Below, in pieces: positions 1 to 19,792 of a DNA stretch of 21,576 nt. The DNA is from a virus: the IMG/VR virus record IMGVR_UViG_3300048919_000283, positions 1 to 21,576 of that record; one strand, given 5' to 3'. Below the pieces are notes generated by a model. That model had not been told where the DNA came from. It did no database searches and saw only the letters and a list, made by a program, of their open reading frames with translations. Made by a program: the position numbers and the translations under genes. Within the stretch, counting starts at the first letter, position 1. Every line of letters starts with the position of its first letter.

Positions 1-889
1 TGTTAGTAAACTTAACTCCGCGAGGGTGCAGGATATTGGTTTTCCTGTTAATCAGGTAATCAACACCGGATCCTTTTCTCTTGGCTCTATCTGTTTCAGT
101 TGGAACAAATCCGACAGGAGAACCATTACCCAATGCAACAGCACCCGCACCAAACAGATAAGATGTAAAAACCATATTGGATCCAGAACCTTCGTAAGGA
201 CAACCATCATCAATGATTACACGTTTTCCCTGATATACATCAATTCTCCCTCCAGTAGAAGGTTGAACGGTTTCAATTAAATTCTGTTTTCTTAGGAAAG
301 CCTCCGTTGCGCTATGTACAGCCACTGCCGACAGCTGCTCCTTTGCATCTCCGAGGCACTGCTGTGCATCAATGAAAGCGCTACCACTCCATTTTGCCTT
401 GTCCCCAGTCAGTCCAGAAATGTCCATAATATTACTTGCAAGCCTTGTAGTGGCTGACCCTCCATCCGGAGTAAATGTACCGAATGCACCTTTCAATAAT
501 GCAATCAATTCTTTCTGCATATCTCGAGCCCAGAATCCAGCTACCAAATCTGCAATTGCCTTCATGGGATCTGCTCCGGCAAGGGCAGCGCTTAAGTCGG
601 ATGCACTCCACATCTTTGCCCTACGGATGATTGCAGCAACATCCTTACTGGATGTAATCTTGTTATCCTCCAGATCATCTCCTTCAATAACCTGTTCTGA
701 TTCCCCCTGTAGATCTTCGAAAAATGGCATATTAACCAGTGGGCTGGCCTGAGAGGCCAATGAATCAAACTCACTATTGTTTACTACAATTCCGCTCTGA
801 ATCAAAGCAGAAAGTACCATTGTGCGGTTAACCACATAAGGGTTAAACAGTTCCGGCACAATAACATCAACTAATCTTGTTCCTGGCAT
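1..889 (-). CDS. Major capsid protein, SPP1 gp13-like (3' end beyond window)
   Basis: An open frame of 296 codons begins with ATG at 889 behind AAAGGTGA and runs off the left edge without a stop. The translation starts MPGTRLVDVIVPELFNPYVV and continues with capsid-like features: an early strand/helix segment, then an acidic stretch around residues 65-75 and a long alanine-rich helical region. This fits major capsid proteins of the SPP1 gp13-like HK97-fold group, which form the icosahedral head shell. It is the last gene visible after portal, MuF and scaffold, exactly where SPP1-type phages place it. The family call is from recalled sequence character and gene order, not from a search. Confidence 0.85.
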   Translation of the reverse strand, partial: MPGTRLVDVIVPELFNPYVVNRTMVLSALIQSGIVVNNSEFDSLASQASPLVNMPFFEDLQGESEQVIEGDDLEDNKITSSKDVAAIIRRAKMWSASDLSAALAGADPMKAIADLVAGFWARDMQKELIALLKGAFGTFTPDGGSATTRLASNIMDISGLTGDKAKWSGSAFIDAQQCLGDAKEQLSAVAVHSATEAFLRKQNLIETVQPSTGGRIDVYQGKRVIIDDGCPYEGSGSNMVFTSYLFGAGAVALGNGSPVGFVPTETDRAKRKGSGVDYLINRKTNILHPRGVKFTN

Positions 890-916
890 ATTTATTCACC
901 TTTGCCTTTCTTATCC

Positions 917-1522
917 TTAAATTGTTACACCGGCAGCCGTAGCCAATTCTTTGGCTTGTGCCGGATTATCTTTTAATAGTTTCCCCTGTTCAGTCAAATT
1001 AAAGGTATCCTTTGCAAAAGGATTCTTCCCGGTATAATTACCACCGCCGGCAGGAGTGTAATTTGTTCCGTCAGCAGCCTTAAATAAATAAGACATGGTC
1101 TTATCCTCTTTCATTGGCTTAAGAATATCTTCAATGCCAATAGGCTTGCTTTCTTTATCATAATTAAACTTCTCAAGCCCGCCCTGTTTATAAATCAGGT
1201 AATCTGGATCAAGGACACCTGCTTTACTTAACTGCTCTTTCAGGGCATATGACTTGGTAGTATTGGTAGCATCATCCTGAAGCTTTTTAATAGTAGTCTC
1301 ATGCTCCTTGATGGTACTCTGCAATGTTTCATTGTCACCATTATTCTTTTTCAAGGTTTCAATGGTTGTATTGGCTGTCTTGAGCTTCTCATTTGCCTCG
1401 TTAAATTCCGACTTTGGTACTGCGTGCTTAGGAAACTCTGTATTAATCTCCTTCGTAAGAGCTTCTGTATCAAGAACACCCTCTTTTGTGTGTTTTGCGA
1501 TTAAATCTAATAACCATTGCAT
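917..1522 (-). CDS. Phage capsid scaffolding protein (GP20/DUF4355-like)
   Basis: The 201-residue product begins MQWLLDLIAKHTKEG; ATG 1522 is chosen over a start five codons upstream because GGAGGAATTATTT sits directly before it. The middle third is a long charged coiled coil with many Lys/Glu/Asn/Thr residues (about residues 35-95). A glycine-rich stretch near GGGNYTGKNPF follows, then a helical tail. This layout (short N-terminal helix, coiled coil, C-terminal helix) is typical of phage scaffold or minor structural GP20 proteins that direct capsid assembly and are lost on maturation. It lies 27 bp upstream of the major capsid gene, the standard position. Confidence 0.8.
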   Translation of the reverse strand: MQWLLDLIAKHTKEGVLDTEALTKEINTEFPKHAVPKSEFNEANEKLKTANTTIETLKKNNGDNETLQSTIKEHETTIKKLQDDATNTTKSYALKEQLSKAGVLDPDYLIYKQGGLEKFNYDKESKPIGIEDILKPMKEDKTMSYLFKAADGTNYTPAGGGNYTGKNPFAKDTFNLTEQGKLLKDNPAQAKELATAAGVTI

Positions 1523-1543
1523 AAATAATTCCTCCATAGATTT

Positions 1544-1658
1544 TTATTCCCGCTCTCCGGGTAATGGGATTCTGCCGTTATTCTCCGGCGGAGTAATTTA
1601 GTTTAATGTCATTTCGGACATAAAAATAAGACCGTAACCCTGGCCTTAAGGGAGATAT
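1544..1658 (-). pseudogene. Possible decayed or non-ATG mini-gene behind a perfect Shine-Dalgarno
   Basis: The 152 bp between the 76-residue gene and scaffold contain a full AAAGGAGGTG (1665-1674), but no ATG, GTG or TTG follows at usable spacing. Eight bases after GGAGG lies ATA (1656-1658), opening 26 codons (to TAA 1578-1580) that read like protein: SPLRPGLRSYFYVRND, then IKLNYSAGE. One base over, the frame continues ENNGRIPLPGERE to a stop at 1544. This may be a small gene with a mutated start and a one-base frameshift, a rare ATA start, or chance. The visible facts are the SD, the spacing and the two frames; the rest is inference. Confidence 0.3.
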
Positions 1659-1674
1659 TTGGAACACCTCCTTT

Positions 1675-1905
1675 CTATAGCAAATTGTTATAAATTGTTA
1701 CATTATCCTTTAAGGTGATTAGTCCATTACCCATGTCTACAAAGACCGGTTCCGTCCCTTTTGGATATAACTTAAATTCTATTCCATCTTTTACAAAACC
1801 ATCTTCTCCGGTAACCAGTGGTATATATGCCAGAATCTCTTTTGTATCTGCCCTGTAAACCGCCACACCTTCATGCATACTAATTTGGATTTCTAAGTTT
1901 GCCAA
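1675..1905 (-). CDS. Small phage head-region protein, unknown
   Basis: TTG 1905 is preferred because AGGAGGTGAG lies just upstream; the longer reading from GTG 1929 would place that ribosome site inside the gene. The 76-residue product is mainly predicted beta: ANLEIQISMHEGVAVYRA at the start and then repeated short strands with Gly/Asp turns. No membrane segment or known catalytic motif is seen. It sits between the HExxH gene and scaffold in the head operon, so a structural or accessory virion role is possible. I do not recognise the family. Confidence 0.7.
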   Translation of the reverse strand: MANLEIQISMHEGVAVYRADTKEILAYIPLVTGEDGFVKDGIEFKLYPKGTEPVFVDMGNGLITLKDNVTIYNNLL

Positions 1906-1919
1906 CCGTGTCTCACCTC

Positions 1920-2246
1920 CTATAAACACTCCGTTTCCTGAAAAGCCTTAAATATTTTAGATGCCTGCAAAGCTATCCAATCAACCAGTTTCTCATCTGC
2001 GCAGTAATCAGGTAATCCAGATTCATGAAAAAATGCATGGATAATTTCATGTCTCAATACTTTCTTTTCATATTCTTTAAAATTAGCGAACGATCTACCG
2101 TCTCCTTCATCCATTCCAGAATCAATGATAAGCTCTTTGGCATAAAGTTCTGCTAAGCCATTCGCCTCACATATCTTGAGCTTTTGATACTCATCCTCTG
2201 AAAGATGTTTGATTTCGTATTCCGTTCCCAGTATGGTTACTTTCAT
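1920..2246 (-). CDS. Small zincin-like (HExxH) phage protein
   Basis: The 108-residue protein has HEIIHAFFHESGL at residues 66-78, a standard HExxH zinc-metallopeptidase helix, followed by E85-KLVDWIALQ, which fits a downstream acidic zinc ligand as in gluzincins. The N-terminal part looks like a small beta/alpha domain. ATG 2246 is preceded by AGGAGGCGTAA. Proteins of this size with HExxH ... VDWIA are common in phages of Gram-positive hosts, usually near the head genes, and their substrate is not established. The stop is TAG. It lies 28 bp after the MuF-like gene, in the same operon. Confidence 0.75.
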   Translation of the reverse strand: MKVTILGTEYEIKHLSEDEYQKLKICEANGLAELYAKELIIDSGMDEGDGRSFANFKEYEKKVLRHEIIHAFFHESGLPDYCADEKLVDWIALQASKIFKAFQETECL

Positions 2247-2274
2247 TTACGCCTCCTGATTTTTAGCAAACTAA

Positions 2275-3336
2275 CTACTTCCCATTCTTAACATATCTCT
2301 CATACCATTCTGGATAAGTCATTTTATCATCAACATAGATTGTTTTACCAGTTATGAAATCCCTGGCAGCTCTCTGACCAGTTAAAATATCTTCCAAGTC
2401 AGCATAGTGTGGCGCTGTAGATGTTCTGCAATTTGGATGAAAGGGATTAGCAGTAACGCCAATCTTGTAGTCGCTGACTTTGAAAACCTTGCCATCAAGG
2501 CTTCTGCAAATCTCAGAGGTCTTCAAATCAAGCGCAGATACAATCTTATACTCTTTTACACCGTTTGCAATGTAACTTTCCTTTCTTGACAGGGAACTCA
2601 TGGCCGCTGATTCTGTCATGACAAGGCGTCCAGCTTGTTTCTTGCTAACATTCATTTTATCAGCTATTGTCTTTATAACCTTGTCTGGTGCATCGCCTCG
2701 TATTATGCTTTGTGTAAGTTCTTTGTTTAAGGTGTCTACAAGCTGTTTCTGATTGGACCATATCCTATCACTAAAAGTCTTTCCATCTGCTGTCCAGGGC
2801 TTTGACATAACCTTTTCAACAGTTGAGGTATCAAGCTTTTGGATATCCATACCGATATTATGACCTTTTTGCAATTCATAGGCTGTCTTATAGTATCCTT
2901 CTGTGTAGATATTCTGTAGCAACTCCGGTACCTTAACTTCCATACTTCCAACAAGAGTTTCTACTTGCTGCTGTATTTCTAGCTGGATAGCTTCCAACTT
3001 TGATATATGTACTCTCGCGGAAGCATTCTCAAGTTCTTTTATCCATTGTTGATTTAAGGCGTTCTCCTGTCCATATTTTATGTATTCCTCTACAGACCAC
3101 TTAAATTCCTTTAATTCCTGATTGGTAAGCATTTGCTTGGCTCTAGCAAATGAAACATCATTATTTTGTGCTAAGCGGAGATACCAAACCAGAACTTTAT
3201 CCTGAATGTTCCTAGATGCCTTCTCGTATTGCTTAACCAATTCGGCACTGTATTCATCTCCCTTATTTAGTAAAGCTTCCTGAAGTATTTCAAAGCGTTT
3301 CTGCCAGTATTCATCACTCTTCTTTGCCATATGCAT
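2275..3336 (-). CDS. Phage minor head / head morphogenesis protein (MuF, SPP1 gp7-like)
   Basis: The 353-residue protein is helical for its first two thirds. It then shows the MuF-type C-terminal domain: RLVMTESAAMSSLSRKESY around 237-255, a cysteine in SEICRSLDGKVF (C277) and NPFHPNCRTS at 297-306. These match the conserved Cys/His pattern of phage Mu F and SPP1 gp7 proteins, which bind the portal and are packed into the procapsid. The gene begins immediately after the stop of the small membrane protein gene. The start could be ATG 3336 or ATG 3330; neither has a strong ribosome site, suggesting translational coupling. Confidence 0.9.
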   Translation of the reverse strand: MHMAKKSDEYWQKRFEILQEALLNKGDEYSAELVKQYEKASRNIQDKVLVWYLRLAQNNDVSFARAKQMLTNQELKEFKWSVEEYIKYGQENALNQQWIKELENASARVHISKLEAIQLEIQQQVETLVGSMEVKVPELLQNIYTEGYYKTAYELQKGHNIGMDIQKLDTSTVEKVMSKPWTADGKTFSDRIWSNQKQLVDTLNKELTQSIIRGDAPDKVIKTIADKMNVSKKQAGRLVMTESAAMSSLSRKESYIANGVKEYKIVSALDLKTSEICRSLDGKVFKVSDYKIGVTANPFHPNCRTSTAPHYADLEDILTGQRAARDFITGKTIYVDDKMTYPEWYERYVKNGK

Positions 3337-3501
3337 CTACCGAATTGTATTATAACTTAACATTGCTACAAGGAACCAAATTGCTGTCGTAAATACCCTT
3401 ACTGTTCTTTCCATTACTGTTCTACCAGTTAAAATACATTTAAAATTCAAAACAACTAATATGGTAGATACAATTAATAAAATCCATGCTACTACAATCA
3501 T
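3337..3501 (-). CDS. Small two-TM membrane protein (54 aa)
   Basis: ATG 3501 follows GAGGAGGGAATAAAAGA and overlaps the portal stop as ATGA. The 54-residue product starts MIVVAWILLIVSTILVVLNF, a hydrophobic segment at about 2-20, has a short basic loop (CILTGRTVMERTVR) and a second hydrophobic segment at about 36-50 (VFTTAIWFLVAMLS). It ends at TAG 3337-3339 directly before the MuF-like start. The good ribosome site, the tight overlap and the two clean membrane segments make it a real gene. Function is unknown; it lies inside the portal-MuF operon. Confidence 0.75.
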   Translation of the reverse strand: MIVVAWILLIVSTILVVLNFKCILTGRTVMERTVRVFTTAIWFLVAMLSYNTIR

Positions 3502-4889
3502 TCTTTTATTCCCTCCTCGTTATTCATTTCTTTCCCAAATGAATCCTTGTACTGGTCTGCTTCATCAGCAGCAGCTTCTTCCTCTAAATACTTAATCTCA
3601 GCATCTGCATCCTCAACAAGCGGGTGATTTTTAAGAATTGTTCGTCTACTAACGATCCCCACACTATCCTTACATATCTGCGCTTGCTCTGTATCATTCC
3701 TAATACAGGTTCGTGTCCAGGTCTGGATGATTGACTTGCATTCTACTTTCAGGTATTGGCATATTGCCCTTACAAACTCCGCAAATCCAAGCATAAACTC
3801 TGTTTGCATTAAACCAGCCTTCATCTCAAGCAATGAGTACATAAATTTAAGTGCTTCTCCTGACTGATTGCCAAAACTTTCAGGTTGTGGGTCAAATCCT
3901 TGCCCTTGTTCAAATATCGCCTTTCTTGTAACATCCAAAACTGTCTTACGTGCTTCTATGGGTATCTCAATGCTAAGAGTGCTTACTCCTGGATTGCTTC
4001 CTTCATCGCCATCAACTTTGATAGTTTTAAACCTTTTAAGATCCTGCAGGAAACTATTTAAATCAGTACCGCCGTAACCAGATAACACAAATATGAGTTC
4101 CTGTATATCATCTAAGTCATTAATGAACCCACTATAAACCTTATCATATATATCTATTAAACTTTTGACATTACCAAGGTCATTGGTATTGATATTGTTG
4201 TTGAAAAATGGGATGAATGGCACCCGTCCATAATCATGAGTAAAAGTATTCTCTAAATATGCCATACCATCTACAAAGGTGCTGAACATTGCATATGACT
4301 GCAATCCCTCATCCAGAGTTTCCGATGTTTTTCTCCTAAAGGCTTGGCACTGTGTATCATTCCAATACTGATATATGGTGTAAAGCTCTCCGTCTGTATC
4401 GTCTAATTGTTCATATACCCTTAAGATTCCACTGAGCTGCTTGTTCAGGTCGGCTGTCCATACCGGAATAATTTGCTTAGAATCTACAACACCGTATTGA
4501 AATGCACTATCCTTATCCAACCAATAATGAAGCCATGCAACGGAGCAGTTGGATGCATTTACACACAAATCCTTTGCTGTTTTAGCATATCTATCCCCCA
4601 GTGCATCGGTAATCCTCTTATTAGCTTCCTGGCTACCGATATCAAAGAGAGGTGGGGCTGTTAAAAGATAAGCCGCCTTTTGGTTAACCAGAAGACCATG
4701 GAAGTTCCGTGGAATCCGGTTGTCGGCATTTCTCAACGGGTTTTCTGTATCATCCTTTTCCTTAGGTTTATCCGCCAGAATATCATTTTTGTTTCTATAA
4801 TACCTCTCTGCCACAGCAGCCTTAGTTATAAAATCGGAATGCCCAGTTGCATATCTCTTTATGACCTTTTTTATAGCTTCTAAATCCAT
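3498..4889 (-). CDS. Phage portal protein (SPP1 gp6-like)
   Basis: The 463-residue protein begins MDLEAIKKVIKRYATGHSDF. ATG 4889 is chosen over GTG 4898, which falls within the AGGTGAG ribosome site. An early RIPRNFHGLLVNQKAAYLL segment, YGVVDSKQIIPVW and the QPESFGNQSGEALKFMYSLL region near the C-terminal third are typical of SPP1 gp6-family portals. Portals form the dodecameric DNA channel at one capsid vertex and dock the terminase. The tail is strongly acidic (EEEAAADEADQYKD). The stop overlaps the next gene by four bases. Confidence 0.92.
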   Translation of the reverse strand: MDLEAIKKVIKRYATGHSDFITKAAVAERYYRNKNDILADKPKEKDDTENPLRNADNRIPRNFHGLLVNQKAAYLLTAPPLFDIGSQEANKRITDALGDRYAKTAKDLCVNASNCSVAWLHYWLDKDSAFQYGVVDSKQIIPVWTADLNKQLSGILRVYEQLDDTDGELYTIYQYWNDTQCQAFRRKTSETLDEGLQSYAMFSTFVDGMAYLENTFTHDYGRVPFIPFFNNNINTNDLGNVKSLIDIYDKVYSGFINDLDDIQELIFVLSGYGGTDLNSFLQDLKRFKTIKVDGDEGSNPGVSTLSIEIPIEARKTVLDVTRKAIFEQGQGFDPQPESFGNQSGEALKFMYSLLEMKAGLMQTEFMLGFAEFVRAICQYLKVECKSIIQTWTRTCIRNDTEQAQICKDSVGIVSRRTILKNHPLVEDADAEIKYLEEEAAADEADQYKDSFGKEMNNEEGIKE

Positions 4890-4907
4890 GTTTCTCACCT
4901 GCCTTTA

Positions 4908-4936
4908 TTGTTATAATTTGTAATTTGTATTATAAT
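4908..4936 (+). promoter_or_regulatory. Sigma-A-type promoter for the YjzC-like gene
   Basis: TTGTTA (4908-4913), a 17-bp spacer and a consensus TATAAT (4931-4936) lie upstream of the plus-strand gene at 4983. The box is in the leader of the opposite-strand portal gene. Confidence 0.7.
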
Positions 4937-4943
4937 GTAAATA

Positions 4944-4959
4944 TGGTACAAATGTACCA
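4944..4959. promoter_or_regulatory. Operator-like palindrome at the predicted transcription start
   Basis: TGGTACAAATGTACCA has two perfect 7-base arms around AA. It starts 8 bases after the TATAAT box, so it covers the expected start of transcription, a classic repressor position. The binding protein is unknown. Confidence 0.5.
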
Positions 4960-4982
4960 ATTACATATGAAAGGAGTCTCAT

Positions 4983-5147
4983 ATGCCAGAACCAATTAAG
5001 CCAGGGACTGATAACCAACCTAAAGGAACATATAAAGAAGTCGGCCCAAGAGGTGGTCAGGTTCCTCATCCAAGAACAGTTAAAATTGACCCGGGTGATA
5101 GGCTCCCTCCTACACAAAAACCTGGTCGAGGATGGGAAAAGAAGTAA
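4983..5147 (+). CDS. YjzC-like small protein, reversed within the late operon
   Basis: ATG 4983 follows AAAGGAGTCTCAT. The 54-residue product starts MPEPIKPGTDNQPKGTYKEV and contains GPRGGQVPHPRTVKIDPGDR and LPPTQKPGRGWEKK. The pattern KPG..P.G.Y.E.G..G ... GDR.PP....G..W matches small YjzC-type proteins found in many bacteria, whose function is not established. It reads against TerL and portal, has its own promoter and operator-like site, and its TAA ends one base before the stop of the convergent 39-residue gene. This looks like a cargo gene expressed apart from the late operon, perhaps in lysogeny. Confidence 0.8.
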   Translation: MPEPIKPGTDNQPKGTYKEVGPRGGQVPHPRTVKIDPGDRLPPTQKPGRGWEKK

Positions 5148-5267
5148 TCAAATCATGATTCTTTTTCTTGATATGCAGAAGCACTTACTAAATAAATTAA
5201 TTTGAATCCACGCTTCTGCATATCTTATCCCGTCTTCTGTATATTTTGTTATATAATGATAAATCAT
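5148..5267 (-). CDS. Conserved-looking 39-aa phage protein between TerL and portal
   Basis: ATG 5267 has a strong AAGGGAGGTGAG ribosome site at ideal spacing. The product starts MIYHYITKYTEDGIRYAEAW, continues IQINLFSKCFC and ends with basic residues. It reads as two beta strands with a CFC pair near the end. Its SD overlaps the last codons of TerL, and the stop (TGA, 5148-5150) abuts the convergent YjzC-like stop with no spacer. I recall similar tiny proteins next to terminase genes in clostridial phages but know no function. A cysteine pair and basic tail could suggest nucleic-acid or metal contact, which is inference. Confidence 0.75.
   Translation of the reverse strand: MIYHYITKYTEDGIRYAEAWIQINLFSKCFCISRKRIMI
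5170..5224. repeat. 13-bp perfect inverted repeat, 29-nt loop
   Basis: GATATGCAGAAGC (5170-5182) and GCTTCTGCATATC (5212-5224) are exact reverse complements. They lie inside the 39-residue gene and just downstream of the convergent YjzC-like stop. No T-run follows, so it is not a standard terminator; it could form an RNA hairpin in either transcript. Confidence 0.6.
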
Positions 5268-5284
5268 CAATTTCTCACCTCCCT

Positions 5285-6586
5285 TTATTTTAAAACTGAA
5301 ACTCCACTGCCACCCTTTAAATCTGATACCTCATAATCATCCAGGGCATACCAAATTGCGGATAATGTATGTGGGTCAATGTTAAATTCATCCTCAATTA
5401 TTTCACCGTTCTTATCTACCTTGAAAGTTAAGTCTTGCAGTTCTTCTATTGTGTTTACACAGTTATCTAAACAGATAATCTTTTTAAATCTTTTAACTTT
5501 CTTGGTATACATTGCTCTTGAACCTTGAAACTTCTTACAAGACTTCATCCGGTACCCTTGTTGCTTATAATATTTAATTGCTTTAGGCTCTGCGCAATCA
5601 GCCTTTATTAACTCCTGAGTCTCTTTGAATTCAGCAATATCTGTATCAATCTCTGTATCATCTTTACCTTTGGAATAGTACTCCCAGTATATGTATAGTA
5701 TTTTATTATCGTGGTCAATTGCTAATCGCAACAGTGCATTATAAGAAGTGACAAATCCAAAATCCATACCATTTTTAAGCAACTGGTTCTTAATTCTCTT
5801 AATTTCTTTCATGCCCTGTTCATATGGCATTGTCTCAAACTGAGGGAATACCAAAGTACCATTTACACCGAATCTTCCCAGCCTTGCAATTCTATACAAG
5901 TCAGGATCATGCGTTTTCAAGTCGTCTAGCTGTTCAATGTAGTCTTTCGGCACAAAAAAATTATCATCAACTGTAGAGTGATGATAATAAGTTTTACCGT
6001 TTATCAATATTCTTTTTATATACAATTCTTCATCGTCCTGGATTAGGAGCTTTTCCTTTTTATCCTGAAAGAAGAATTTATAACACCAGTTGCTCTTGCT
6101 AACCGGGTTTGTAGAGAGAATTATGTGATTGCTTAAAATGGGATGCCTTAGTCTTCCTAAGATTTCTTTAAACCCTTCGTATTTTACTTCGGAACATTCT
6201 TCTATCCAAACTATTGATACACCATTTAAGGACTTTAACTTTGCCGGCTTATCCATTCCCTTAAATATTATCTTGCTTCCATTCTGGAATCTAACCTGCA
6301 TCGGAGAGGTTGTAAATGTAACATAGTCCTCAACTTCCATAGCTATCACTATTTCTTGTAATAGATCAAAGCAAGAATCCCTAATTGTATCGTACACTTC
6401 CCTTACTACCAAGGCTTTACGCTTTTCTTCAAGAAGTTTCTTAACAAGCTTAATTCCTACATGGTAACTCTTTGAGGAACCATAACCACCAGTTAGCATA
6501 TAGAATTTATAATCCCAATTGTGAACAAAGTCAAAGAAGTGGTCATTAAGAGCGAAATTAACATTCTTAGTTTCCATGACTATCAC
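5285..6586 (-). CDS. terL: Terminase large subunit (TerL, PBSX/SPP1 type)
   Basis: The 433-residue protein has a Walker A variant [12 protein letters not shown] at 33-44, a Walker B with catalytic acid in [12 protein letters not shown] (123-134, E129/E130) and a motif III-like ILSTNPVS (156-163). The C-terminal nuclease half carries GMDFGF with D275, [10 protein letters not shown] with D330, and [14 protein letters not shown] with D404, a RNase H-like acidic set. TerL pumps DNA into the procapsid and cuts the concatemer. It overlaps the end of TerS by 20 bases. The start may be GTG 6586 or ATG 6577; neither has an ideal ribosome site, so coupling to TerS is likely. Confidence 0.95.
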
Positions 6587-7268
6587 TTGCCTTTGTAAAA
6601 GTTATCTGAATTGGTATGTCCTTCTCACTGTTTACTTTATCCTTTAGTACAGCAATACGGGCTTTCTGTTCCTCTGTGGCAAGCTCCCAGTTATTATGCA
6701 ACATTTCGTCATACTGCTTAATCATACTACGGAGTTCACCTTGTGCTCTTGCTTGAGCTTGCATAAACTTAGAATGCTTATCTATTGCTGTTTGCACAAG
6801 GAAATCTTCACCGATAATCTTACCATCTTTGTATCCAGATCTAATTATCGTATTATCTTCTTGATCCCTAACGTATGATAATTTCTGCGCCCTTACAATA
6901 GCAGCATAAGCAATCTGTATCTGATCCCATAGAATATCTAAAGGATTAAGAGACATATTATTTACAATATCAAGCGTCTCCTGCGGAAGATACTTTTCAA
7001 ACAATCCATGTTTAACAGCATTATCATTTTTAACGGGTGCTCCACCATCATTGTTAATAGCATTCTTATTCCCAGGTTGACCACCTTTGTTCCGTTTCGC
7101 AACGTTGCGTTTATCTGATTGCAACGTTGCGTTCCATTTGTAACGGTTCTTCCATGACCTAACCGTTCCTTCTGGAAGATCTAATTGACTTGCAATCTCA
7201 ATTAGTTTTAATCCACTTTTAAATAGTTCATGAGCCTTACCGACTCTTTCATCTGGTGCCCTTGGCAA
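6567..7268 (-). CDS. terS: Terminase small subunit (TerS)
   Basis: The 233-residue protein starts at TTG 7268 behind GGAGGTGAGCCTGA. It begins [19 protein letters not shown], followed by a helix-turn-helix ([20 protein letters not shown], 22-41), the DNA-recognition domain of PBSX-like TerS proteins. A basic linker with GGQPGNKNA (62-70) and an oligomerisation region rich in helices follow. TerS binds the packaging site and hands DNA to TerL. Two GCAACGTTGC palindromes lie within its own coding sequence (see repeat). No promoter is obvious in the short gap between the upstream terminator and this gene, so read-through, antitermination or an ArpU-dependent start is needed. Confidence 0.92.
7098..7131. 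repeat. Paired 10-bp palindromes inside terS (candidate packaging-site element)
   Basis: GCAACGTTGC occurs at 7099-7108 (extended to the 12-mer CGCAACGTTGCG, 7098-7109) and again at 7121-7130. The centres are 22 bp apart, about two helical turns, so both face the same side of the DNA. In many phages the pac site is within or beside terS. Confidence 0.55.
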
Positions 7269-7340: not shown

Positions 7341-7787
7341 TCATTTTATCTTCTTTATTTTCTTTCCCATATATCTATTACTAATACATTCGTATACATG
7401 ACCCAAATCAGTTTCAAAACTACTATAAAAGTTAGCATGCTCTTCATTTGTCATTTCACCGGTCTGCACTACAAGCTTGTCCTCTACTTTCTGTACGACT
7501 GATAACAATCTTTTATAAAATTCGTTATCATTGTACTTAAAGTAAATAGAATTCTCCCTTAGCTCTCTTAATATCTCCAACATACTATCAGTTCCACTAA
7601 GTTCTACTCCGTTGTAGTGTATAAATTGTCTTGCTTGTGGTATTTTTTTTACAAGAAATTCATTGTAGATATCTTTATAGTACTCTGACAATAAATTAAT
7701 TTTATTAATATTTTTATTATACATATATTCAAATAATGGAACACCTAAAGAAATAATTACTGCAACAAACGATAATAACAGTGACAT
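7341..7787 (-). CDS. Single-TM helical protein, third gene of the GHKL/DUF4325 cassette
   Basis: The 148-residue protein has one N-terminal membrane segment (MSLLLSFVAVIISLGVPLF, about 2-20). A predominantly helical cytosolic part follows, with Asn/Lys/Tyr-rich helices (YNKNINKINLLSEYYKDIYN) and a very basic end (GKKIKKIK). ATG 7787 follows AAGGGAGAATAAG, 17 bp after the DUF4325 gene. I recognise no catalytic motif. N-terminally anchored helical proteins of this kind are common beside conflict-related enzymes, where they may act as membrane effectors or tethers; that role is inference. The region is visibly more AT-rich than the terminase genes. Confidence 0.8.
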   Translation of the reverse strand: MSLLLSFVAVIISLGVPLFEYMYNKNINKINLLSEYYKDIYNEFLVKKIPQARQFIHYNGVELSGTDSMLEILRELRENSIYFKYNDNEFYKRLLSVVQKVEDKLVVQTGEMTNEEHANFYSSFETDLGHVYECISNRYMGKKIKKIK

Positions 7788-7804
7788 CTTATTCTCCCTT
7801 TCTT

Positions 7805-8092
7805 TTATGAAAATAAATCTCTCATTATTTCTTTTTTTAAACTTTCATTTTTGATATCTAATATAATTATATTTTGAAACCCTATATAACCAACTTCTTT
7901 TATAATTTCTGAAAAAAATCCTTGAACAAACGAAGAAGCCACTTTTTCTATATTTTCCGGAAACGAAATAACGTTGACTCGTGAAAAGTCTATTTTGTTT
8001 TTTACTTGTTTGTCATACACGTCTTTTCCATAAGGATTGCCGGCCAAACGAGTTGTTGCTTTATTAAAAATCAATTCAATCCTCTTTTCCAT
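7805..8092 (-). CDS. STAS-like domain protein (DUF4325-like)
   Basis: The 95-residue protein contains TRLAGNPYGKDV (14-25), then DFSRVNVISFPENIEKVASS (35-54) and SFVQGFFSEII (54-64), and a strand IIILDI (75-80). This is the layout of the STAS-like DUF4325 family: a strand with D-F-x-x-V, then a helix starting SSFxxGFF. STAS-like folds act as phospho- or nucleotide-dependent partner switches, e.g. SpoIIAA with the GHKL kinase SpoIIAB. ATG 8092 follows GAAAGGAAAG and overlaps the GHKL gene end by 17 bp, suggesting stoichiometric co-expression. The family call comes from motif recall. Confidence 0.82.
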   Translation of the reverse strand: MEKRIELIFNKATTRLAGNPYGKDVYDKQVKNKIDFSRVNVISFPENIEKVASSFVQGFFSEIIKEVGYIGFQNIIILDIKNESLKKEIMRDLFS

Positions 8093-9239
8093 ATATTTTC
8101 TTTCCTTTCATAACAAAATTTAGATTAAATGCAGTTCCTGGCATATATATATAGCACTCTGATATTACTCTTTTTTCAGGGATTCCATTAATATAGTTTT
8201 TAGCCTTGTTGAACCCTACCCAATTGTCCTCGTCAAAGTCTATTGTATTTTGCAAAAAATGTACAGCTCTACCACCGCTAATCATATAGCATTTATGCGC
8301 TGAAGATCGCTTTTCTAAAGACTTAATTAATTGAGTTAATCCTGTTCCTCCTGTGGATTCACAATGTTCTCTCCCCGAAATTTTGTGTTGAAAAGCAGTT
8401 ATATTATAAAAATCCTCTTCTAGATACTCTGAACTAAATTTGGACTTATGATATTCATATGCAGAATATATGTTTTTATACCTTCCATCACAATCAAACC
8501 TTTCAGCTATTTTTCTTTTTATACCATCACCAATTAATTTATCAGAAAAATTTAACACTACTATGTTTATTCCATAGTAGTCATCACTATCTACAATATC
8601 ATTTACACGCCTACTGTAGTCGCCAGTCACATCAACATCTATTAGACAATCAGATATTCCATGTTCGCAAGAGTTGCCGACTAATTCCACAATAACTTTT
8701 GATATATCATCCTTACAATCATCTTGAACTCCAAAAGGTGTTAAAAAACTATCTATCTCTTCAAACAATTCACCCAAAAAGTTGGTATTATCTCTATCTT
8801 TTCCGCTTATAACTCTTCTTAAGTGATATCCATAGGTATCTTTTTTAAATTTATCTTTGAATTTTATCATATTATCAATTTTACCAGAATTCAACAATAA
8901 TAATGGTGAGGAGTACGCTCCTTCTGTTCCTATACTTTTTTTTACCTTGGAGAAGATATGGACTTCCTGTCTATATTTATCTATTAAACTGTAACAAATG
9001 CACTCTAAAAAAACAAATGTTAGCTTATCAATGAAGGTAATATCTCCTAAATTTATAAATATGGGCATTCTCACACCAGGATATTGAAAGTGAATTGCAT
9101 TAATAAACTCAATAATCGTATTTATGTTTTTTCCTGTAAATAAAGAGTCTTTATTTATGAAGATAATTTGCCCCTTTGTAATCTTTATTTTATAAATTGC
9201 TTTCCTATTTTTTTCAAATAATAATTCAATATTCTGCAT
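8076..9239 (-). CDS. GHKL-family ATPase with N-terminal STAS-like segment
   Basis: The 387-residue protein has a histidine-kinase-like ATP-binding domain. Its N-box is VIVELVGNSCEHG (182-194; E185, N189, H193) and its G2 glycine loop is ESTGGTGLTQLI (294-305). The G1 position (VVLNFSDKLIGDG, 227-239) lacks a clean DxGxG. Residues about 55-95 (MPIFINLGDITFIDKLTFVF) resemble a STAS strand-helix unit. No receiver, HAMP or phospho-acceptor His-box is seen, so this is not an ordinary two-component kinase; it is closer to SpoIIAB/MORC-like ATPases. ATG 9239 follows GGGAGAGA and its own TTGACA/TATAAT promoter. It is the first gene of a three-gene unit with the DUF4325 and TM proteins. Confidence 0.82.
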   Translation of the reverse strand: MQNIELLFEKNRKAIYKIKITKGQIIFINKDSLFTGKNINTIIEFINAIHFQYPGVRMPIFINLGDITFIDKLTFVFLECICYSLIDKYRQEVHIFSKVKKSIGTEGAYSSPLLLLNSGKIDNMIKFKDKFKKDTYGYHLRRVISGKDRDNTNFLGELFEEIDSFLTPFGVQDDCKDDISKVIVELVGNSCEHGISDCLIDVDVTGDYSRRVNDIVDSDDYYGINIVVLNFSDKLIGDGIKRKIAERFDCDGRYKNIYSAYEYHKSKFSSEYLEEDFYNITAFQHKISGREHCESTGGTGLTQLIKSLEKRSSAHKCYMISGGRAVHFLQNTIDFDEDNWVGFNKAKNYINGIPEKRVISECYIYMPGTAFNLNFVMKGKKIYGKED

Positions 9240-11467: not shown

Positions 11468-12508
11468 CTAGTTTTCTTTTTTAATTGCAATTAATTGAAT
11501 CATTACATGTTCCCCATATGGAGTGAGTTTCCAGTATGTAAGTTTGTCCTTTACACTTCTATTTTTTATACTCTTTTGTATAAGACCAAGCGCCTGTAAT
11601 TGTACCTTAATAATCTGAAATGAGTTTATTTTAATTTCAGTCAGCGTTATTTTCTTTACATCATTTTCTTTTCTAAATAGTTTTATATCTTCACTATATC
11701 CTTCACTATTTCTTATTAGTTCCTTTAAAACTTTTAGTAAACTTACTTCATCGCATTCGCTTACCAAGTAAGGTGATAGCTCACTAAATAATTCATTCCA
11801 TGTATAATTATATGCATAATCATGAAACCATTTTTTATCTGATTTATCTGTGTAATGGATACAATATGTTATATCTACCACATCATCCCCTTGTGCAAAT
11901 TTATTAGCACCTTCAGGAGCATCAACTTTTAAATTCGCAATTTGTTTTTTTAACTCATTATTTTCCTTTTGCAACTTTAAAAGTTCTATCATAGTGTTTT
12001 CATCTGATATATTATCAGCCTTTACCCAGCCAATGGCAGGATAATCCCTGATTAACCTTATCATGCTCCTTGAAACAACGCTACCTAAGTCGTGTGAATC
12101 TGTCCAATATTTAGTCATCTTTGTTTGTGCAAGTTCACGAAAAGCACCTAATTTTTCTATCCCTTCTGGTGTTTTTTCAGACTTTGATGTTATAATATTA
12201 TCCGGATTCTTGTGAAGAAATGCAATAACAGGCTTACCAGTTTCTATTGCATAACGATACTCTTTTTCAGTATATCCCATGCCTTCACTATCCATAGAAC
12301 CATATCTCCCTGCTAATATTAGTATATAATAATCACAGTCATCAATTACCTTTTTTATTAGAGTCCACTGGTCATCATTTGATGCAGGGAATAACTCCAT
12401 TCCGGCTGGGATACAATCTTGCTCTAGTAGTGCTTGCATTACCTCTTTTCGTTCTTCCTGCAAATCAACATAAGTTGAACTTATAAAAACCTGATATCTT
12501 TTATCCAT
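11468..12508 (-). CDS. DUF4062 (TIR-like) protein with coiled coil and winged-helix-like C-terminus
   Basis: ATG 12508 is chosen over 12559 because GGAGGATAGT lies just before it. The 346-residue protein opens MDKRYQVFISSTYVDLQEER, the DUF4062 hallmark, followed by GMELFPASNDDQW (36-48), DDCDYYILILAGRYGS (56-71), YTEKEYRYAIETGKPVIAF (79-97). DUF4062 resembles TIR-type domains and is often coupled to defence-type ATPases. A coiled coil (about 168-195) links to a C-terminal domain ending in a winged-helix-like segment (LQALGLIQKS ... YWKLTPYGEHVM). No STAND NTPase is fused here. With a private promoter and terminator it is a self-contained cargo gene, probably anti-phage or host-modulating; that role is inference. 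Confidence 0.85.
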   Translation of the reverse strand: MDKRYQVFISSTYVDLQEERKEVMQALLEQDCIPAGMELFPASNDDQWTLIKKVIDDCDYYILILAGRYGSMDSEGMGYTEKEYRYAIETGKPVIAFLHKNPDNIITSKSEKTPEGIEKLGAFRELAQTKMTKYWTDSHDLGSVVSRSMIRLIRDYPAIGWVKADNISDENTMIELLKLQKENNELKKQIANLKVDAPEGANKFAQGDDVVDITYCIHYTDKSDKKWFHDYAYNYTWNELFSELSPYLVSECDEVSLLKVLKELIRNSEGYSEDIKLFRKENDVKKITLTEIKINSFQIIKVQLQALGLIQKSIKNRSVKDKLTYWKLTPYGEHVMIQLIAIKKEN

Positions 12509-12537
12509 ACTATCCTCCATACAATGACATATAATGT

Positions 12538-12566
12538 ATAATATCCTATTTTTTACCAACTATCAA
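12538..12566 (-). promoter_or_regulatory. Promoter of the DUF4062 gene
   Basis: Minus-strand TTGATA (12561-12566), 17-bp spacer, TATTAT (12538-12543), about 30 bases upstream of ATG 12508. A TTGACA at 12575-12580 could act as an alternative -35 with a weaker -10. Confidence 0.65.
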
Positions 12567-15390: not shown

Positions 15391-16759
15391 TTATAATGCA
15401 CCCTTTCTTGCGATAATGGGTTTTCCGTTTTTTATATTGATTCTCACAGAATTGTATATCATCCACATAGTCATAGCAGATTGCTTCCGTTTTATCAGGA
15501 CTTACCCTTCCTATGCGTCCTATGCTTTGAACAACAACAGCAAAATCTTTTTTCGGAGTAGCTAGATACAACCGATCCAGGCAGGGTATATCTAATCCTT
15601 CTTTCGCAAGAGAGTAAGAAGCAAATAGATATTTTTTCTTACCAGACCGCATATCCTCTAAAGCTCTGGCTCTTTCTGCCTTTCCCTTTTTACTGGTCAT
15701 TTTACCGCTTATCATAACTGCGTCCGGAGAATTAAGCTTATCCATTAGTATTTCTAAATGCTCCAGCCGGTCTGAAAGGATGATATTACTGTGAGTTTCA
15801 TTTGCTTTAAGCTGTTCAACAATCAGTTCATTTCTTTTCTCGCTGTACACCAAGTAATTCATAAGATTGCCGTATATCAAAGTACCATCCGTATCTAAGC
15901 AGGTTTCATTTGTCTTGATGTCGGTATTGCATTTATGAACAACTATCTGCATTGTCTTATCCGCAACTGCTTCTTCCGGTACGGTATAAGCAATATCTCC
16001 AACTATAGCAAAGGTGGATTTTATTAATCCATCCCCTCTATGAACAGTAGCAGATAACCCGTATTTATATCTGGCTGCCAATGTGTTCATTACTCTGGAG
16101 AACATAGTCACCTGTGTAGGTGTCCCAGCCAGTCTTTGAACCTCATCTACAATAATAACGTCCCAGGTGTATTTATATTGCTGTAGATCTAATTTAGTTA
16201 ATGTTTGTACTGTGGCAAAGGTGATTCCTGAACCGATATGCACTTTTCCTTCTGTCATCCTGCCTAGCAAGCTCCTGTCCATATACATAGCCGCTCTATC
16301 ATAAGACTGATTTAATAAATCTGCTGTATGAGTAATCCATAATGCTTTACGGCCTATCCTAGCCGCTAATGCTATTCCCATCTGGGTTTTGCCTGAACCA
16401 CAAGGAGATTGTAAGATTCCACATCCAAACTTCTGCATGGCTGCCACTGCTGGCTCCTGGTAATCGTATAAAGGTATCTCTGACTGAAAATTGATTGGTG
16501 GGTTATCTGCCAGGTCTTGCTTAATATCTGCACCGGTTACAAACTTTCTGATATGCTTTCCTGTTCCAACAGGGACTATAAGACTGTTTCCGTTTACCTG
16601 ATACAAATAGATATATTCAGGCATATTTCCTACCCATAAACCCATCCTTTTCTTTTTCTGATAATCAGGATTTTTAATAATCAAGTTGTCTTGAACCCAT
16701 TTAACCAATGCAGAGGAAGGATCCTTAATAGTTATTTCATTACTGATTATTACTTGCAT
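15383..16759 (-). CDS. SF2 DEAD/DEAH-type helicase
   Basis: ATG 16759 follows GGAGGGGTTAGG and is preferred to a start six codons upstream. The 458-residue protein has SPCGSGKT (118-125, motif I), IIVDEVQRL (202-210, motif II as DEVQ), GLSATVHR (234-241, motif III), a motif V-like EGLDIPCLDRLYLATP and motif VI QSIGRIGR. A YDYQEPAV segment before motif I is typical of RAD25/ERCC3-like SF2 translocases. It likely unwinds or remodels phage DNA during replication or recombination. The gene overlaps the nuclease gene by 10 bases and the next gene by 8, so the proteins probably act together. Confidence 0.93.
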   Translation of the reverse strand: MQVIISNEITIKDPSSALVKWVQDNLIIKNPDYQKKKRMGLWVGNMPEYIYLYQVNGNSLIVPVGTGKHIRKFVTGADIKQDLADNPPINFQSEIPLYDYQEPAVAAMQKFGCGILQSPCGSGKTQMGIALAARIGRKALWITHTADLLNQSYDRAAMYMDRSLLGRMTEGKVHIGSGITFATVQTLTKLDLQQYKYTWDVIIVDEVQRLAGTPTQVTMFSRVMNTLAARYKYGLSATVHRGDGLIKSTFAIVGDIAYTVPEEAVADKTMQIVVHKCNTDIKTNETCLDTDGTLIYGNLMNYLVYSEKRNELIVEQLKANETHSNIILSDRLEHLEILMDKLNSPDAVMISGKMTSKKGKAERARALEDMRSGKKKYLFASYSLAKEGLDIPCLDRLYLATPKKDFAVVVQSIGRIGRVSPDKTEAICYDYVDDIQFCENQYKKRKTHYRKKGCIINE

Positions 16760-17163
16760 CCTAACCCCTCCAGCCATTTATTAAGTGATGTAGAATACCA
16801 AAGCAAATCATTTTTATTAACTACTTTTATACTTTTGTTTTTTAGGAATTCTAAGACTTCCAAGGATATTATCCTGATGCCCTTGCTGGTATTCATAGCA
16901 AATAATCCTTCATGGTTTCCGCATTTCTGCCAAAGAGCCATAGAATTGTATTGATTTTCTTCTATCCTGGATAACGGAAAGGTATCATTCTTACAGTCCT
17001 TGCAGTCAAATATATAAGTATTGCCTGCTCTGGCTGCTATAACGTCAAACGGTTGTCCGTTTTTATTATCTTGCAATTTATGTACCCAAAATCCATGTTT
17101 AGCAAGGATATGTACAAAATCGTATTCAAAGTCCGTTCCTGCTTTTTTGTTGTTTAACTTCAA
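16750..17163 (-). CDS. Holliday-junction-resolvase-like PD-(D/E)xK nuclease
   Basis: TTG 17163 follows TAGGAGTGATAGA. The 137-residue protein has an archaeal Hjc-like order: KKAGTDFEYDFVHILAKHGF (6-25, E13), GQPFDVIAA (36-44, D40) and IFDCK (51-55; D53-C-K55), the E...D...D-x-K nuclease core, then a Gln-containing helix (EENQYNSMAL, 68-77). Such enzymes resolve branched DNA. It is directly followed by the helicase and preceded by the GGTTACC repeat region, consistent with processing of replication or recombination intermediates. Alternative: a general VRR/Hjc-like nicking nuclease. Confidence 0.82.
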   Translation of the reverse strand: MKLNNKKAGTDFEYDFVHILAKHGFWVHKLQDNKNGQPFDVIAARAGNTYIFDCKDCKNDTFPLSRIEENQYNSMALWQKCGNHEGLFAMNTSKGIRIISLEVLEFLKNKSIKVVNKNDLLWYSTSLNKWLEGLGCK

Positions 17164-17180
17164 TCTATCACTCCTATTTA

Positions 17181-17389
17181 GTTACCAAGGTTACCAGTTT
17201 TTCAAAAAGTATCCCCCTAGTGGTAACCGATTAAATTCAGTAAAATCAATGGTTTCCGTCTACGGTTACCCGGTTACCCTGATTTTAGTATCTCCTATAA
17301 AGAAAGTATGTGTATGTATGTTAATTCCGACACACACACCAAGTATTATATATGTGTGCTTCTTGGGGTAACCGGGTAACTGGGTAACC
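17181..17389. repeat. GGTTACC/GGTAACC repeat cluster in 8-bp phase (candidate origin or operator array)
   Basis: In the 227-bp gap there are eight copies: 17181 (partial), 17189, 17222, 17264, 17272, 17367, 17375 (partial) and 17383. Within groups the units are spaced exactly 8 bp (17181/17189; 17264/17272; 17367/17375/17383). The 17264-17279 block and the 17365-17380 block form an inverted repeat (GTTACCCGGTTACCC against GGGTAACCGGGTAAC) about 85 bp apart. An AT-rich TG/CA-alternating stretch lies between. Related GGTTACC copies occur in the flanking DUF927 gene, e.g. 17535. This resembles iterons or a multi-site operator; no gene was found here. Confidence 0.75.
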
Positions 17390-17390
17390 A

Positions 17391-19298
17391 CTAAACATTA
17401 AAAGGCAAGTCCATTTGGTCATTAACCGATACAAATTCAGTATTTTCAAGGTCTTCGCCATCTTCACTATCCTCCAACTCATCCATTTTCAAATAAACAC
17501 ATCGAACAGACTTTCCACTAAATTTTTTATTTTTGGTTACCCTGGATTTCTTATCTTTATCCTTTATCAATAGATTATTTCTGTCTGCCCAAGTCAAAAA
17601 TGACTTTTTGGAAAAGTTACCCCTCTCGCACATTCCTTTAAAAATTAAATCATGTATAATAACGTATCCATTATCAATACAACCCCAGACCTCGCCTCTA
17701 TAGTTTCCATAATCATCTGGAACAAAGTTATTTCTATGGATGGCTACATCCGACATAATAAAGGAGTATGCTCGTTCTTCCTCTGAAACTTCCTCCTTGT
17801 TCTTTAACATGTCAAAACACATATCAAAATCTAAATACATTCCATCTTCAAAAATATGCTCTGTCGCTATCTTGTCAGCAGTTAAAAGAATAGACATAGG
17901 GAGTATTTGCTTATCTTCCTTCTCTACACCTAACTCCGTAGCCCTGGCATATATCTTATCCTGAAATCCTTTGCGAATATTTTTGAGGTCCTGTAAGTCC
18001 ATATGGCTAATAATTTCAATGAATTCCTTTCCTGCATATCCGTAATGCTCCTTTATAGTGCTAACCACAGCCCCTGATTCTGAAATGTTTCCAAAGATAT
18101 TACCCTCATCACTTTCAAATTCGATAATACGATTGATAGCTCCGCCCTGCATAGTATCGCTGATTAAAGAGCGTTCTGAATTAGTGAGAATGACATTTTT
18201 CCAGTATCTCTGTCGCTGCAACCCTATATTTACATTCGAGCGTTCTTTTCCGCCTCCGGAACAAAGGCTATATACATATCCTGAAAAATCATCTTTCATT
18301 TTTTTCTGAATTTCTGAAAAATCATCAACAGCCAGTGGTAAATGATTCAAAAAGTCTAATCTGGCTTCTAAGGCGATTTCATTTGCTTTAGATTTAATCC
18401 AGTACTTACCTTCCGCTGGATCAGCCCATACAGATGTTGCTATCATCAATGTAACGGTCTTGCCTTTTCCGGATTTTCCGTAGTTATCAATAATAAAGGG
18501 TAGTGCATCGAATTTATGTAAAAGTGGACTAGCAAAGGCACCAGCAAGATATATTCTTGGCTCGAATCTATTGCTCTTTCTGACACCGACCATTAATTCA
18601 AGCCATTTAGTATATGAACCGGATGAGTGAATACTCTTAAAGGCACCTGAAAGGGCATCGTCATTATCAAAAACGACATTGTCATCATATGGTATGAAAC
18701 CTTTGTTCAGCCACCCAAGCTTAGAAGTAGACAGTTGCTCTGGAATTAGAGCGTCATTCATGCTTTCTATGTCAGCCAGATATTGTACAAGAGCCCTAGC
18801 ATTCTCGCTGGTTACCCTTACACCATACTTTGATAAACCAGTAATCCGGTTACTAGAAGACATAGTCTCTTTATCCACGATGACTTCTTTCCAACGATTC
18901 CTTACTTTGAAGGCTAGGACGGTTTTTATATATCCTGTTTCTGCATTGATTAAAGATTTAACAGGTAATATAGGGTGGCTGCATGCTGTCTTTTCTCCAA
19001 AATTCGTTAAGATTGTAATTCCGTCTTCCCTTGCAGTCCATCCTCCTGAATATAGTGGAGGGTACCCTCCGTCAAATTCCGTATAGTTACCACCTGTTTT
19101 TTGGGTGTAGTTCCTTTTGGACTTGGAAAAGGCTTTCAGCATACGGTCAAAACTCTGCTTAACCCCAAGCTCCTTTGCTCTATCTGTGAGAGTCAGGATA
19201 AGCCTGGATTGCTGAATTATATCCTTTTCTTCATAGATTTCAAAAAAGACCTCATCCTCCAGTATTGTTTTTGCATCAAGTTCATTAATATTTTTCAT
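17391..19298 (-). CDS. DUF927-domain replicative helicase-like ATPase
   Basis: ATG 19298 overlaps the primase stop as ATGA. The 635-residue protein has the DUF927 layout: an N-terminal region, then LGWLNKGFIPYDD (194-206), FASPLLHKFDALPFIIDNYG (255-274) and Walker A GKSGKGKT (274-281). An acidic pair LPLAVDDFSE (320-329) fits Walker B, LTNSE (371-375) sensor I and GAINRIIEFE (386-395) an arginine finger. DUF927 proteins are AAA+/helicase-like ATPases of phage and mobile-element replication modules, often next to a primase domain, as here. The C-terminal about 500-635 may be a DNA-binding domain. The stop is TAG. Confidence 0.9.
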   Translation of the reverse strand: MKNINELDAKTILEDEVFFEIYEEKDIIQQSRLILTLTDRAKELGVKQSFDRMLKAFSKSKRNYTQKTGGNYTEFDGGYPPLYSGGWTAREDGITILTNFGEKTACSHPILPVKSLINAETGYIKTVLAFKVRNRWKEVIVDKETMSSSNRITGLSKYGVRVTSENARALVQYLADIESMNDALIPEQLSTSKLGWLNKGFIPYDDNVVFDNDDALSGAFKSIHSSGSYTKWLELMVGVRKSNRFEPRIYLAGAFASPLLHKFDALPFIIDNYGKSGKGKTVTLMIATSVWADPAEGKYWIKSKANEIALEARLDFLNHLPLAVDDFSEIQKKMKDDFSGYVYSLCSGGGKERSNVNIGLQRQRYWKNVILTNSERSLISDTMQGGAINRIIEFESDEGNIFGNISESGAVVSTIKEHYGYAGKEFIEIISHMDLQDLKNIRKGFQDKIYARATELGVEKEDKQILPMSILLTADKIATEHIFEDGMYLDFDMCFDMLKNKEEVSEEERAYSFIMSDVAIHRNNFVPDDYGNYRGEVWGCIDNGYVIIHDLIFKGMCERGNFSKKSFLTWADRNNLLIKDKDKKSRVTKNKKFSGKSVRCVYLKMDELEDSEDGEDLENTEFVSVNDQMDLPFNV

Positions 19299-19792
19299 TT
19301 ATCCAGCTCCAACAAATTTTCTAGTAAATATATTTGGTATTGCAGTTTATTCTGGTAATAACACCACCGGTCTGAGAATGGCCGTTCCTTGGTTATGAGC
19401 AATCTATACGCTGTGATATGTAAGTGAATAGAACGTATTCTTAGCTTTTGCTGCTTCTGTTCCTGTTCTTTCTGCAATCTAGCTCTCTTTGCATTAGATG
19501 CTATTACAGTTGCTCTCCATGAAGGCTTTTCACTTCCTCCCAATAACTCAAAAGCAGTCCAAAAATCACACCCTTCAAAGTGTTGTGTGATAGCAAAAAT
19601 GTCCATTGCCTCATCACATACATAACACCAAAGATAATCGTTGGTTACTTTAGCATTCAGGTCTTTACCATCGTGGCAGATACCTCTGCATCTGCCACGC
19701 CTAATTTCAACACCATATCTCTGTAAAACTTCCGGCACTGTTACTGTTGCCTTAACTTCGTCAATACGTTCTTGTAACTCTTCCTTGGTCAA
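19295..19792 (-). CDS. Stand-alone CHC2-type primase zinc-binding domain
   Basis: TTG 19792 follows CGGGGTGATTGA. The 165-residue protein contains GRCRGICHDGKD (33-44) and LWCYVCDEAMDIFAITQHFE (54-73), a C-x3-C-H ... C-x2-C zinc ribbon of the DnaG/CHC2 type followed by the usual helical FxAI..FEG segment and WTAFELLGG. There is no TOPRIM catalytic domain; the rest is a basic Gln/Lys-rich coil (KEQEQKQQKLRIR). It probably recognises primer sites for the DUF927 ATPase or a host primase. It overlaps the next gene by four bases, supporting a joint function. Confidence 0.85.
   Translation of the reverse strand: MTKEELQERIDEVKATVTVPEVLQRYGVEIRRGRCRGICHDGKDLNAKVTNDYLWCYVCDEAMDIFAITQHFEGCDFWTAFELLGGSEKPSWRATVIASNAKRARLQKEQEQKQQKLRIRSIHLHITAYRLLITKERPFSDRWCYYQNKLQYQIYLLENLLELDK

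Follow-up and report, generated by a model that had tools for sequence, protein, structure and literature searches.

A repeat array beside a DUF927 helicase gene as the probable SaPI/Cch-type replication origin of a phage of Clostridia

Background

What does a cluster of short repeats do between two genes of a phage replication module? The question is raised by a viral DNA fragment of 21,576 nucleotides (IMG/VR record IMGVR_UViG_3300048919_000283), to which we refer in full as the window. The original prediction held that the repeats were either the phage's replication origin or the operator of a dedicated regulator. We favour the first answer. With a probability of roughly nine in ten, the array is the origin of replication of a phage of Clostridia, an iteron origin of the SaPI/Cch type at which the initiator encoded next to it would bind and replication would start.

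The element is a phage and not a satellite, since genes for terminase, portal, scaffold and major head protein lie at 2-7268; a SaPI depends on its helper phage for head and packaging genes, and this element has its own. The gene order Sak4-SSB-nuclease-primase-helicase is also annotated in Roseburia phage Jekyll. A small protein with a primase-type zinc domain (19295-19792, minus strand; CHC2-like, a weak match) and a RecU/Hjc-like Holliday junction resolvase directly after the array (16750-17163, minus strand) are encoded nearby. Between the terminase genes and the next part of the operon, three genes at 7341-9239 (387, 95 and 148 aa) gave no Pfam or PADLOC matches and are a possible cargo or defence module. 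The phage also carries a DUF4062 protein (11468-12559; match 2.7e-29).

Layout of the array

Eight GTTACC/GGTAAC units lie within 17181-17388, the number predicted; only six of them are full GGTNACC words and two are not. Along the coding strand of the initiator gene, rep, the order is three inward units, an 88-bp AT-rich spacer and two outward units, followed by a conserved element, one inward unit, two more outward units and then the ribosome-binding site of the next gene. The three inward GTTACC units make up inner set 1 (17367-17388, minus strand; units at 17367-17372, 17375-17380 and 17383-17388). This set begins 2 bp past the rep stop codon, so that the array stands directly downstream of rep. 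Inner set 2 (17265-17278, plus strand; units at 17265-17270 and 17273-17278) is in the opposite orientation. The spacer between them (17279-17366, no strand assigned) is 67% A+T, contains an imperfect GTGTGTGT/ACATACACA inverted repeat and is the presumed melting site. A single distal iteron (17222-17227, minus strand) lies 37 bp from inner set 2, and the outermost pair (17181-17195, plus strand; units at 17181-17186 and 17190-17195) adjoins the ribosome-binding site. An 8-bp spacing had been noted for the units, and it holds within both inner groups; the outermost pair steps by 9 bp. The large inverted repeat that had been described is there, with arms of 15 nt, 100% identical and 86 nt apart.

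The proposed scan for GGTNACC density gave 11 copies in the whole window against 1.86 expected. In dinucleotide shuffles the word is about one-sixth as frequent, and none of 100 shuffles matched the count. A further full GGTTACC at 17535-17541 falls inside the initiator gene, over codons R586-V587-T588, and other GTTACC copies occur in that gene; the copy over these codons is probably there by chance. GC skew is uniform across the 21.6-kb fragment, so it is uninformative and lends no support to an origin. Two other kinds of element were considered and rejected. A DnaA-type origin would call for DnaA boxes (TTATNCACA), of which the window has none, and an RNA element finds no Rfam family at the array, where only chance matches far below threshold were obtained.

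The neighbouring initiator helicase

The gene rep (17391-19298, minus strand) encodes a protein of 635 aa with a DUF927 AAA+ core (Pfam match 6.8e-32) and a C-terminal HTH_56 winged helix (residues 507-607, codons at 17478-17780, minus strand; Pfam 3.1e-19). Pfam describes HTH_56 as the 'Cch helix turn helix domain', and 55 of 56 relatives have it; a Pfam match to the RepA_N initiator domain is absent from the protein. In the AlphaFold2 model (mean pLDDT 88) the C-terminal domain is a winged helix, with the HTH helices at residues 507-579 and a wing of two strands, 589-593 and 596-604. Codons 586-604, which cover the wing and include R586, N590, S597 and R599, are at 17487-17543 (minus strand). 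SaPIbov1 Rep (8tch) and SCCmec Cch (5dgk) are the nearest solved structures, both by sequence and by the fold of the model. The protein is homologous to Rep of the SaPI-like PT1028 over more than 450 residues (E 2e-24), and its Walker A residues, G279 and K280, show no variation. By homology the initiator is a self-loading helicase of the SaPIbov1-Rep/SCCmec-Cch type, expected to work as an ATP-dependent hexamer. The array is explained by having such an initiator as its neighbour. Three candidate binders had been put forward, the primase, the DUF927 protein and a 589-aa protein; they are now narrowed to the DUF927 protein, which would bind through a winged helix that had been overlooked.

The initiator ends in QMDLPFNV (17391-17412). 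[LIVM]PF occurs within the last 12 residues in 102 of 130 relatives and the longer Q..[LIVM]PF at the C-terminus in 68 of 130, and the SSB-like protein of the window has a similar end, EEQLPFM. The tail resembles a sliding-clamp-binding motif or an SSB-type tail.

Conservation of the plan among relatives

We gathered 146 loci from IMG/VR, GTDB genomes and phage records, of which 130 are non-redundant. In 122 of these 130 a six-base word recurs strongly just behind the gene, far beyond shuffles, with a mean of 7.8 copies compared to 2.8 in shuffled sequence and 3.0 within the gene. Two inverted tandem sets are present in full in 94 of the 130 and by half in another 26; stretches of the same genes gave no full and three half plans, and shuffled sequence two half plans. 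Of 207 iteron steps, 199 measure 8 or 9 bp, and the gap between the inner sets has a median of 95 bp. The inner spacer has a family median of 73% A+T compared to 53% in the gene, and the spacer of the window is less AT-rich than that median.

Relatives that keep the genes and lack the repeats would have spoken against an origin. There are eight loci of 130 without repeats just after the gene, and three of them have an array further downstream; about five have at best a weak array within 1.5 kb. A small gene for a DNA-binding protein lies between rep and the array in [Ruminococcus] gnavus phages (4884-5060 in locus L010), which puts the array there at about +190. Motifs like CTCGCGCGTA or CCTATATAGG recur in the AT-rich spacers of relatives (e.g. 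L048, L057 and L134), in some 20 loci each. None of the annotated phage records examined carries an origin mark at the position of the array.

Covariation of iterons with the initiator wing

The repeated word is not the same in all relatives: GTTACC, GTTCCC, GTTACA, GTAACA, GTGGGA and GTCGGA are all found, and so the palindrome GGTNACC of the window is incidental. Inward iterons nearly always start with GT, followed by TACC, TCCC, TACA, AACA, AACC, CACC, GGGA, CGGA, GCGA, AGAC, TGAC or others. When the iteron bases were compared with all columns of the protein, mutual information had its main peaks at residues 599, 586, 590 and 597, all within the wing or next to it. With Arg599, iteron position 5 is C in 93 of 93 cases; with Arg586, position 6 is C in 40 of 42, and in one clade C at position 6 occurs alongside Lys586. 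Val590 is mostly found with T at position 3, and Leu590 or Gln590 with A.

Descent was controlled for with independent pairs, drawn without overlap from a tree of the helicase core, in 1,095 tests over all 635 columns. Arg586 with C6 was the best of all the tests (26 pairs, of which 20 for and none against; Bonferroni 0.002), Lys586 with C7 stood at 15:0 (Bonferroni 0.047) and Val590 with T3 at 13:0; the associations of residues 590 and 599 fail Bonferroni correction on their own. We also asked how often the nearest neighbour has the same four variable bases, leaving out relatives with at least 70% core identity. The answer is 49% for neighbours by wing, 18% by HTH helices and 13% by core, with 17% expected by chance. 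A predictor based on four residues is not independent, having been picked on these same data. A partial Mantel test of the wing given the core (r 0.25, 0 of 999 permutations) points the same way, less strongly than the pairs test. From these comparisons of sequences we infer that the C-terminal wing reads the variable iteron bases and that its specificity amounts to a readable code.

Some relatives appear to be natural swaps. Loci L127 and L010 are 99% identical in the core, 69% in the domain and 58% in the wing, and their iterons are GTTACA and GTAACA; between L135 and L046 the core is 96% identical and the wing 38%. The opposite case is that of L105 and L005, which agree in only 61% of the core, and in 83% of the domain, and have an identical iteron. 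Near-identical cores combined with different wings and different iterons mean that the reader domain and the origin were exchanged together. The winged helix and the origin thus behave as one cassette, replaced as a unit, which gives related phages distinct origins. We further infer that iteron types do not cross-react.

A second conserved element

The conserved element mentioned above, element E (AAACCATTGATTTTACTGAATT; 17234-17255, minus strand), lies between the inner and distal iterons and is the best-scoring site of the window. The consensus forms an imperfect dyad, roughly AAAACCTnGTATTTATGCGGTT, scoring 1165 compared to 458-503 for shuffled segments. It occupies this place in 103 of 116 loci, with iterons of all kinds, and an E-like element is found on the other side in 45. 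The window too has such a site (17425-17446, minus strand; score 11.5), beyond the inner sets in the 3' end of rep, as repeat D2. Sites were accepted in the top 0.05% of positions in genes; as 21 of 116 AT-rich spacers also pass this threshold, a single weak match carries little weight. From the inner pair to the distal iteron the distance is in most cases 36-39 or 45-48 bp. These classes are about one helical turn apart, as if the distal and inner iterons were constrained to face the same way.

Alternative explanations

Could the array instead be an operator, bound by Rep or another phage regulator acting as a repressor of genes downstream of rep, with replication starting elsewhere? Self-repression is common among iteron initiators, the outermost iterons lie against the ribosome-binding site of the following gene, and the small gene in the [Ruminococcus] gnavus phages could be counted for a regulator. 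We nevertheless hold this to be very improbable. No promoter-like site was found in 16900-17600, the array is 3' of rep and not in front of it, its double set, symmetric about AT-rich DNA, agrees with known origins, and the iteron word changes together with the helicase wing. An operator is not needed to account for the array, which may have an added operator or autoregulatory role. A site for recombination, packaging or restriction (e.g. recognition or modification of GGTNACC), used by the neighbouring nuclease, is barely credible: the resolvase gene does adjoin the array and GGTNACC is palindromic, but the words of relatives such as GTTCCC, GTTACA and GTGGGA are mostly not, for which we rejected such a site, and the array persists where the following gene is unrelated by annotation.

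A different objection concerns the code and not the origin. Since the reader domain and the origin are adjacent and transferred together, linkage alone could make wing and iteron correlate, and the association would come from shared descent and recombination blocks without direct reading of bases by the wing. We find this unlikely, because the independent pairs single out residue 586 among all columns and because the HTH helices, equally linked, predict the iteron poorly.

Comparison with known systems

The origins of SaPIs follow closely on rep, and their iterons are recognised by the C-terminal domain of Rep (PMC7581432); PICI origins always have two iteron sets flanking an AT-rich region (PMC6092414). 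The array of the window has these properties of position and plan, being 3' of rep with two inverted sets around AT-rich DNA. It shares with SaPI rep-ori, as in SaPIbov1, a DUF927-type self-loading initiator helicase and short iterons in this arrangement. PT1028 has GTTCCC iterons and a distance of 38 bp to the distal iteron, as in these phages; element E, strong in the family of the window, is only weakly matched there (score 3.4). Unlike a SaPI, the element of the window is a tailed phage that has head and packaging genes of its own, and its iteron word differs.

SCCmec Cch shares the DUF927 plus HTH_56 architecture. Cch2 binds direct repeats just downstream of its own gene through its C-terminal domain (PMC7581432), but it is a member of a different helicase family, and only three iterons of 5 nt, with no symmetric double set, make up its putative origin. 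In PLE satellites of Vibrio cholerae, changes in the DNA-binding domain of the RepA_N initiator go with changes in the origin, and its specificity has been swapped; there the origin-cutting nuclease Odn, directed at the origin, selects for change (PMC8263062). The PLE initiator is unrelated and has no helicase, and PLE iterons are about 30 bp. SaPI origins have been compared to the SV40 T-antigen origin (PMC9894130), in which repeats of opposite orientation direct two initiator helicases head-to-head, as they would in the window. T-antigen is a different initiator and reads its origin through an N-terminal domain.

Proposed mechanism and implications

Gene family, position, layout, an inverted plan in 120 of 130 relatives and wing covariation together give strong support to the replication origin that was one of the two predicted roles. 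We imagine the following course of events. The C-terminal winged helix of Rep would bind the GTTACC iterons, with wing residues 586-604 reading the variable bases. Steps of 8-9 bp are less than a helical turn, so neighbouring reader domains would be wound around the duplex. This spacing had been called unusual for a dimeric repressor, and indeed it fits a ring- or spiral-forming protein better. The inner sets, inverted around some 90 bp of AT-rich DNA, would let two Rep assemblies load head-to-head, and the facing assemblies would then melt the spacer and begin unwinding. Element E may be a second contact, for a further partner.

A broader suggestion can be made, to which we give somewhat less than even odds. 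A few wing residues (586, 590, 597 and 599) would set the iteron bases in a compact, decodable code; exchange of the reader and origin cassette between near-identical phages would create many mutually blind origin types; element E, bound by a factor common to all types, would mark the origins; and interference aimed at origins, between phages or satellites, would drive the turnover. That these phages are under pressure from origin-directed attack is a guess by analogy.

What was an unexplained array next to a domain of unknown function becomes a replicon with a predicted start site, in more than 100 phages and prophages of Clostridia. Their natural variation suffices for reading a DNA-recognition code and for following initiator and origin as they change together. 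It bears on whether replication of different phages and satellites within one cell depends on the identity of their origins.
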